DNA of 64,000 nt, from assembly GCA_009937525.1 (NCBI GenBank), contig JAACFE010000003.1, positions 1-64,000 of the forward strand, read 5' to 3'. Below are positions 2 to 276 of the stretch, piece by piece. The stretch comes from Gammaproteobacteria bacterium. Lineage in GTDB: Bacteria > Pseudomonadota > Gammaproteobacteria > Steroidobacterales > Woeseiaceae. Below the pieces are notes generated by a model that was not told the origin of the DNA, ran no database searches, and saw nothing but the letters and a program-made list of their open reading frames with translations. The position numbers and the translations under genes were made by a program. Position 1 is the stretch's first letter. Every line of letters begins with the position of its first letter.

Positions 2-92
2 TGGCGGAGAGGGTGGGATTCGAACCCACGAAAGGCTACTAACCTTTGCTGGTTTTCAAGACCAGTGCATTCAACCGCTCTGCCACCTCTCC
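2..92 (-). tRNA. tRNA-Ser (anticodon UGA)
   Basis: Read on the minus strand this is a complete 91-nt class II tRNA. The 7-bp acceptor stem GGAGAGG/CCTCTCC is followed by discriminator G and an encoded CCA at 4-2. The anticodon loop CTTGAAA gives UGA, there is a variable arm, and the T-arm carries GGTTCGAATCC. It decodes UCA-family serine codons. A partial copy of its 5' end and leader lies upstream on the same strand (117-235), so the nearest good promoter is about 155 bp away, beyond that copy. Confidence 0.97.
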
Positions 93-116
93 GGATTTTC
101 ATGTCCGGTCGTCCTT

Positions 117-222
117 GACCAGTGCATTGACTCGCGCCGTCCATGGCGCTCGCCCTTCGGGCGCGCTTCGCGCGTCCCAATCGGCATTCCCGCCGATTGG
201 TCAACCGCTCTGCCACCTCTCC
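117..222 (-). pseudogene. interrupted 5' copy of tRNA-Ser
   Basis: On the minus strand 222-201 repeats the first 22 nt of the intact tRNA-Ser exactly. After a 73-nt interruption (200-128), 127-117 resumes with ATGCACTGGTC, the D-arm/anticodon-stem sequence. The match then ends, so no 3' half exists and it cannot mature into a tRNA. The 13-nt leader before each copy is also duplicated (223-235 versus 93-105, 11 of 13 identical), so leader and 5' tRNA were copied in tandem. Confidence 0.85.
128..200 (-). mobile_element. 73-nt structured insert in tRNA-Ser copy
   Basis: Minus-strand order: a perfect 9-bp hairpin (CCAATCGGC, 6-nt loop, GCCGATTGG), GAC, two short hairpins with GAA loops (GCGC-GAA-GCGC and GCCC-GAA-GGGC), then a GCGCC/GGCGC hairpin with a 6-nt loop, ending GGCGCGAGTCA. 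It splits the tRNA copy exactly between GGTTGA and ATGCAC in the D-arm. The same architecture and nearly the same terminal string occur in the insert at 62003-62069. It encodes no protein. Whether it is mobile is inference from the two sites. Confidence 0.55.
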
Positions 223-247
223 GGCTGTTCATGTCGATGCGCCGGGC

Positions 248-276
248 ATTGTGCTTGCAGGCAAGGCGTGATTCAA
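248..276 (-). promoter_or_regulatory. candidate sigma70 promoter for tRNA-Ser
   Basis: On the minus strand TTGAAT (276-271) and CACAAT (253-248) are 17 bp apart. The predicted start near 241 lies about 20 nt before the 5' end of the broken tRNA copy, a normal distance for a tRNA gene. No comparable promoter was seen between the broken and intact copies, so this may drive a precursor that carries both. Confidence 0.4.

Follow-up and report, generated by a model that had tools for sequence, protein, structure and literature searches.

A hairpin-bearing partial duplicate of tRNA-Ser(UGA) upstream of its intact gene in a Woeseiaceae genome: a probable 5'-side counterpart of tRNA-linked repeats

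tRNA-linked repeats (TLRs), first described in 1978, contain 18–19 bp that match exactly the 3' end of the directly preceding RNA gene, and 22 of them are present at ten loci in E. coli K-12 (PMC8144298). The repeats of the tyrT operon and the rtT RNA are named TLR in the same article, which cites Bosl and Kersten 1991. According to this article, a starvation phenotype that was once claimed has been withdrawn, and three rRNA-linked TLRs bind Hfq and CsrA; the other TLRs were still described in 2021 as lacking a known function (PMC8144298). RNAs of the RtT family have been seen by Northern blot in Actinobacillus pleuropneumoniae (PMC4986893), RtT was reported as upregulated in the cold in Thioalkalivibrio (PMC8092127), and rtT-like elements are assigned to the BIMEs in Enterobacteria (PMC2965389). 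No description of comparable units on the 5' side of a tRNA gene was found among the titles and abstract openings retrieved from an open-access library.

The locus analysed here lies in a 64,000-nt stretch (referred to as the window) that forms the start of contig C88 of a Woeseiaceae genome, which comprises 3.0 Mb in 167 contigs and is 95.55% complete. We consider its main feature to be probably a 5'-side TLR, i.e. a partial tandem duplicate of tRNA-Ser(UGA) that carries TLR-type hairpins in its D-loop and is situated between the promoter and the intact gene.

Organization of the tRNA-Ser(UGA) locus

On the minus strand, a promoter-like site is followed by a leader, tRNA nucleotides 1–22, a 73-nt insert, tRNA nucleotides 23–33, a spacer, and the intact tRNA-Ser(UGA) gene. 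The features are as follows (model R1 and alignment A2 are explained below):

271..276, minus strand: −35-like hexamer TTGAAT, recognized by sequence; the motif is shared with relatives upstream of the first tRNA-Ser(UGA) copy
248..253, minus strand: −10-like hexamer CACAAT, recognized by sequence, separated from TTGAAT by a 17-nt spacer and conserved in relatives
223..235, minus strand: first copy of the leader, GACATGAACAGCC, in direct repeat D1
201..222, minus strand: nucleotides 1–22 of the broken tRNA-Ser copy, GGAGAGGTGGCAGAGCGGTTGA, identical to the intact gene by repeat comparison
128..200, minus strand: 73-nt hairpin element in the D-loop of the broken copy, by folding and by a match to R1 positions 1–72, the 92.6 bits of which are high by construction because this element is one of the ten R1 seeds
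177..200, minus strand: hairpin H1, CCAATCGGC-GGGAAT-GCCGATTGG, by folding; covarying helix 1 of alignment A2
153..161, minus strand: hairpin H3, CCC-GAA-GGG; helix 2 of A2
134..149, minus strand: hairpin H4, GCGCC-ATGGAC-GGCGC; covarying helix 3 of A2
117..127, minus strand: remnant of tRNA nucleotides 23–33, ATGCACTGGTC, following the element; in direct repeat D2, an 11-nt right-flank match to tRNA-Ser(tga) position 22
93..116, minus strand: 24-nt spacer, by sequence, with the second leader copy, GACATGAAAATCC, at 93–105 (direct repeat)
2..92, minus strand: intact tRNA-Ser(UGA), anticodon TGA in the DNA, identified by ARAGORN and Rfam (RF00005, 62.2 bits)

The direct repeats D1 (35 nt, 71–105 versus 201–235, 94% identical) and D2 (60–78 versus 117–135) confirm the tandem duplication of the leader and about 33 nt of the tRNA-Ser 5' end that a preliminary description of this DNA had reported, the pieces being 22 and 11 nt in length. 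The 73-nt insert in the D-arm of the promoter-proximal copy, which had also been reported, is present at 200–128 and folds into several hairpins: the minimum free energy of region 226–118 is −50.6 kcal/mol, compared with a shuffled mean of −41.3 kcal/mol (z = −3.26). When compared with Rfam, the insert gave sub-threshold matches only. A tRNA intron was considered and rejected because no otherwise complete tRNA surrounds the insert; the interrupted copy ends after tRNA nucleotide 33.

The window begins with exactly the same 94 nt with which another contig of this genome, C111, ends, and the intact tRNA-Ser gene thus sits in an assembly overlap. The broken copy, the spacer, and the 5' half of the intact gene are all contained in one contig, and a terminator-like sequence is found behind the intact gene on C111.

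Distribution and conservation of the units and of their hairpin element

The arrangement was sought in related genomes, as the preliminary description had proposed, and was found to recur. A pattern scan of GTDB r220 genomes for the tRNA-Ser 5' half with a D-loop insert, which selects tRNA flanks by design, yielded 86 units in 78 gammaproteobacterial records, distributed among Woeseiaceae, Xanthomonadales/Lysobacterales, Marinobacter, Chromatiales, Sedimenticola, Steroidobacter, Salinisphaerales, and others. Fifteen of the 86 units are located at contig ends; for 67 of the remaining 71, an intact tRNA-Ser gene is encoded on the same strand within 700 bp downstream (within 250 bp for 55 units), and the isoacceptors of these 67 units are GCT (24), CGA (16), TGA (15), and GGA (12). 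The covariance model R1, three of whose ten seeds (loci L237, L266, and L277) are among the records of the scan, recovers 72 of the 86 units with a match that begins where expected. The window contains one unit, and several records contain two or three in tandem, e.g. three at 150-nt spacing in L301. In nine records, a further element follows GGTTCGA or GGTTTGA 72–98 nt behind the intact gene, so that a single tRNA gene can have repeats on both sides. The last hairpin of the D-loop unit holds a further nested hairpin segment in L267, L295, and L299. At L048 (493–543, genome G036), 29 nt of the tRNA-Ser(UGA) 5' end are duplicated in tandem with no element, possibly an early step.

From the 86 units, 63 distinct D-loop elements were delimited; 16 units lack a recognizable end, and further ones were excluded as identical, truncated, or containing N. 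The window element and 56 of these 63 make up alignment A2 (n = 57; seven were left out by choice). In the three-helix structure, 93.1% of the cells of the 57 elements are paired, versus 72.3% in shuffled alignments, and double-change cells number 130 versus 40; slid control structures reached at most 51.7% pairing. In this set, the H1 pairs comprise 238 Watson–Crick, 2 GT, and 2 AC pairs, and no consistent strand asymmetry of wobbles was detected in the stems except at the closing pair of H3 (GT 73, AC 5). As the stems are almost purely Watson–Crick, selection on an RNA is indistinguishable here from that on a palindromic (single-stranded) DNA element.

A comparison of the window with a near relative, L258, revealed differences at none of 33 tRNA nucleotides, 5 of 73 element nucleotides, and 10 of 24 spacer nucleotides; the five element differences affect loop positions or the pair that closes the loop of H1. 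In 62 of 67 units, the initial 22 nt are identical to those of the adjacent intact gene, compared with 24.6% of 1,124 cross-record pairs of the same isoacceptor. The 15-nt leaders likewise agree at 58% with the neighbour versus 33% between records. This pattern points to recurrent duplication or conversion next to the individual genes.

R1 was built from ten copies of the element, some adjoining tRNAs and others elsewhere, so that the share of tRNA-associated copies in the family is biased. Among the 60 genomes searched, mostly draft metagenome genomes, R1 matches were found in 40 (including our own), with 0–30 per genome and five below 1e-6 in our own genome. In total, 153 element matches were identified, of which 145 were used for the flank analysis; the eight left out were four duplicate places under other locus identifiers (three in L070 and one in L084) and four weak matches (L046 655, L174 1001, L179 4107, and L166 4414). 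With a set of 79 tRNA sequences taken from the fetched loci only, a boundary-anchored tRNA piece with a score of at least 12 was detected on at least one side of 75 of the 145 copies but at only 2 of 300 random positions; at a score of 10, the corresponding numbers were 82 of 145 and 6 of 300. The flanks were classified as T-loop (52 copies), reversed tRNA-Phe 3' end (24), a non-tRNA class termed class2 (15), D-loop (14), anticodon loop (7), and other (33).

An intact tRNA-Ser gene lies downstream of all 14 D-loop copies, and an intact gene lies downstream of six of the seven anticodon-loop copies. For the 52 T-loop copies, an intact tRNA is located upstream in 33 and downstream in 8. Thus, 5' pieces precede the gene and most 3' pieces follow it. 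A second case in our own genome is a broken tRNA-Ser(CGA) whose anticodon loop holds an element (G000:C64:4081–4147; L096 1501–1567), with the intact tRNA-Ser(CGA) at C64:4202, about 55 nt downstream of this element. In L082 (1418–1677, genome G015), a tRNA-Ser(GGA) copy upstream of the intact gene carries elements in the D-, anticodon-, and T-loops, and the corresponding copy in L080 (1501–1677, G028) carries them in the anticodon- and T-loops. Elements in the T-loop of tRNA-Phe 3' ends are scattered among ordinary genes (DUF3014, CHAD, CheR, PGA_cap, and others) at L185–L187 (G027:C7), L188, L189, L190, and L192. The non-tRNA copies, e.g. L094, L095, L107, L109, L112, and similar loci, are flanked by ...GCAGCGA and ACCGAGCCATGAAG..., and their outer inverted repeats differ from copy to copy.

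Promoter placement and competing explanations

The promoter-like site described earlier at 276–248 is present, although TTGAAT-17-CACAAT scores 8 of 12 and is therefore absent from the consensus scan, which requires a score of at least 9. Its assignment to the position of the broken copy agrees with the placement of the motif in the tRNA-Ser(UGA) loci of relatives. In 16 of 24 unit-free loci, TTGAA[T/A]-17-CACAAT ends 15–28 nt before the tRNA. Of 19 unit-bearing loci, six have the motif ending 22–39 nt ahead of the first copy, and none has it between the copy and the intact gene. The other 13 unit-bearing loci, which mostly belong to other groups, lack the motif, and this counts against an explanation as a 5' leader. 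When all isoacceptors were taken together (64 units), the top sigma-70-like score in front of the unit was 7.98, versus 7.47 for shuffled sequences (p = 0.0004), whereas the stretch just before the intact gene showed no excess (6.88 versus 7.09); scores of at least 9 were obtained for 14 of 64 upstream regions and for none of the 64 stretches before the intact gene. Since promoter scores and motif precede the first copy and not the intact gene, the unit is likely to be co-transcribed with tRNA-Ser, and a structured leader is the best reading of these sequence data. A precursor consisting of leader, half-tRNA, hairpins, and tRNA would follow from this promoter placement.

On this basis, we propose that the unit, a tandem duplicate of the leader and tRNA nucleotides 1–33 with the hairpin cluster at a fixed place in the D-loop, would be transcribed with tRNA-Ser as a structured 5' leader. 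During maturation, it may be cut away as rtT RNA is from the trailer, yielding an rtT-like RNA or influencing the processing of the precursor. Tandem duplication or gene conversion may keep the repeat in register with the neighbouring gene.

A serious rival, though in our estimation the less probable case, is a selfish palindromic DNA element similar to REP or IS200/605 that inserts, as a folded single strand of DNA, into tRNA gene loops at a target of roughly GA^A; only copies in redundant tandem duplicates would survive, and the host would derive no benefit. Such an element would account for the occurrence of the same sequence in D-, anticodon-, and T-loops, at scattered tRNA-Phe 3' ends, and outside tRNAs, for left flanks that usually end in GA, and for the nearly perfect Watson–Crick stems. 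A Y1 transposase is also encoded by 27 of 40 element-bearing genomes versus 5 of 20 element-free ones (p = 0.0026, uncorrected for kinship). However, PF01797 (Y1) has no match in our own genome, with 32 of the 60 genomes positive, and none in the copy-rich genomes G036 (21 copies), G021 (12), and G019 (11); among the 37 congeneric genomes, the number of copies does not correlate significantly with that of Y1 matches (rho 0.25, p = 0.14). The nearest neighbour of an element belongs to the same loop class in 82 of 112 cases (shuffled mean 26.6, maximum 43) and to the same genome in only 22 of 112; neighbours are thus mostly members of one loop class in other genomes rather than of other classes in the same genome, indicating that recent within-genome transposition is not the rule. 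The avoidance of stems by the element changes between the window and L258 also disfavours this origin. Domestication of an old selfish element would reconcile the selfish and leader readings.

Quite unlikely is an evolved folding switch, in which two 5' acceptor strands, the duplicate and the real one, would vie for the single 3' strand and the element would adjust this competition so as to control tRNA-Ser maturation. Partition functions were computed for 59 of 64 transcripts, and for 59 of 63 in the shuffle test, the rest being excluded because of N, length, or the lack of an exact acceptor complement. The acceptor 3' strand was predicted to pair with the broken copy in 41 of the 59 folded transcripts, but this preference was the same after shuffling of the element and spacer (broken copy 0.61 versus 0.58, own strand 0.27 versus 0.28), which indicates that the element does not encode the strand competition. 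In the window, moreover, the predicted partner of the acceptor 3' strand is its own 5' strand (0.84) rather than the broken copy (0.02), and the switch was dropped after these partition functions and shuffled controls. The earlier suggestion that two identical 5' ends would be presented to RNase P also lacks support, as the broken copy of the window has neither a 3' acceptor strand nor a T-arm.

Random decay of a tandem tRNA duplicate, the scar of an integrative element, or an assembly artefact, to which the contig end inside the tRNA region and the 94-nt overlap with C111 might point, is highly improbable and largely refuted, given that the architecture recurs in the 78 records, that the element belongs to a family in relatives with covarying stems, that the unit is inside the contig, and that no Pfam integrase or transposase was detected in 10 of 25 ORFs in the first 9.4 kb; the random decay that the preliminary description had named as a refutation thus fails.

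Comparison with tRNA-linked repeats and other known elements

REP sequences mobilised by RAYTs are characterized by a conserved tetranucleotide at the hairpin foot and by transposition. Like REPs and BIMEs, the present element is a short GC-rich palindromic sequence with many copies per genome, but it differs from REP/BIME and RAYT systems in its strong bias towards tRNA loops and in the absence of a Y1 gene from its own genome. With the Xanthomonas sRNA sX7 (Rfam RF02226), the insert has a GCGCCAxGGACGGCGC segment in common, although it scores 24.6 bits against a threshold of 55. At L045 (1–106) and L050 (594–747), the tRNA-Ser gene together with its trailer is matched by another Rfam family, sX4 (Proteobacterial sRNA). 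A separate sRNA as the source of such matches in relatives was rejected; the sX4 consensus reads as tRNA-Ser.

The TLRs of the tyrT type (Rfam RF00391, RtT) are the closest described system. In both cases, short units lie beside a tRNA gene, and a tRNA stretch is interrupted by hairpins with a ...CCCGAAGGGCGA... core. TLR units can be tandem, as are the two or three units in relatives of the window. The window unit adjoins its tRNA gene across the 24-nt spacer, and the promoter motif upstream of the unit, as judged from sequence, would place both in one transcript. The E. coli tyrT locus reads GGTTCGA, hairpins with CCCGAAGGGCGA, and then ATCCTTCCCCCACCA, which is the same build as that of the T-loop copies in relatives. 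The RtT model itself (gathering cut-off, 45 bits) matched neither the window nor any other part of our own genome; matches above the gathering cut-off were obtained in 3 of the 60 genomes. Conversely, R1 ranks four units of the tyrT locus first to fourth in 31.7 kb with weak scores (16.0 and 14.4 bits; best score in a 30-kb control, 8.9 bits), these units sharing sequence and not constituting independent tests. We take this as a modest sign that the hairpin cores may be akin to those of the E. coli tyrT TLRs.

A TLR derives from the tRNA 3' end and follows the gene; the window unit, by contrast, comprises nucleotides 1–33, precedes the gene, and carries its hairpins in the D-loop. As it does not have this defining feature of TLRs, the unit is to be regarded as a mirror-image variant rather than as a TLR member. 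More tentatively, the units found in other genomes could represent a widespread, hitherto undescribed class of structured 5' leader RNAs in Gammaproteobacteria, in which tandem pseudo-tRNA-Ser units with hairpins in one, two, or all three loops would be transcribed from the tRNA-Ser promoter and processed to a stable small RNA linked to the supply of serine tRNA. One hairpin family occupies the D-, anticodon-, and T-loops of duplicated tRNA genes, and the mirror-image class between promoter and tRNA extends over four serine isoacceptors and includes cultured strains identified by the pattern scan, namely Marinobacter segnicrescens CGMCC 1.6489 (L294), Marinobacter maroccanus N4 (L251), and Dokdonella fugitiva A3 (L282). 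Such a class makes the question of what TLRs are for testable: termination can spare a transcript its trailer but not a leader element, and removal of the latter should therefore affect the tRNA itself if the element matters.
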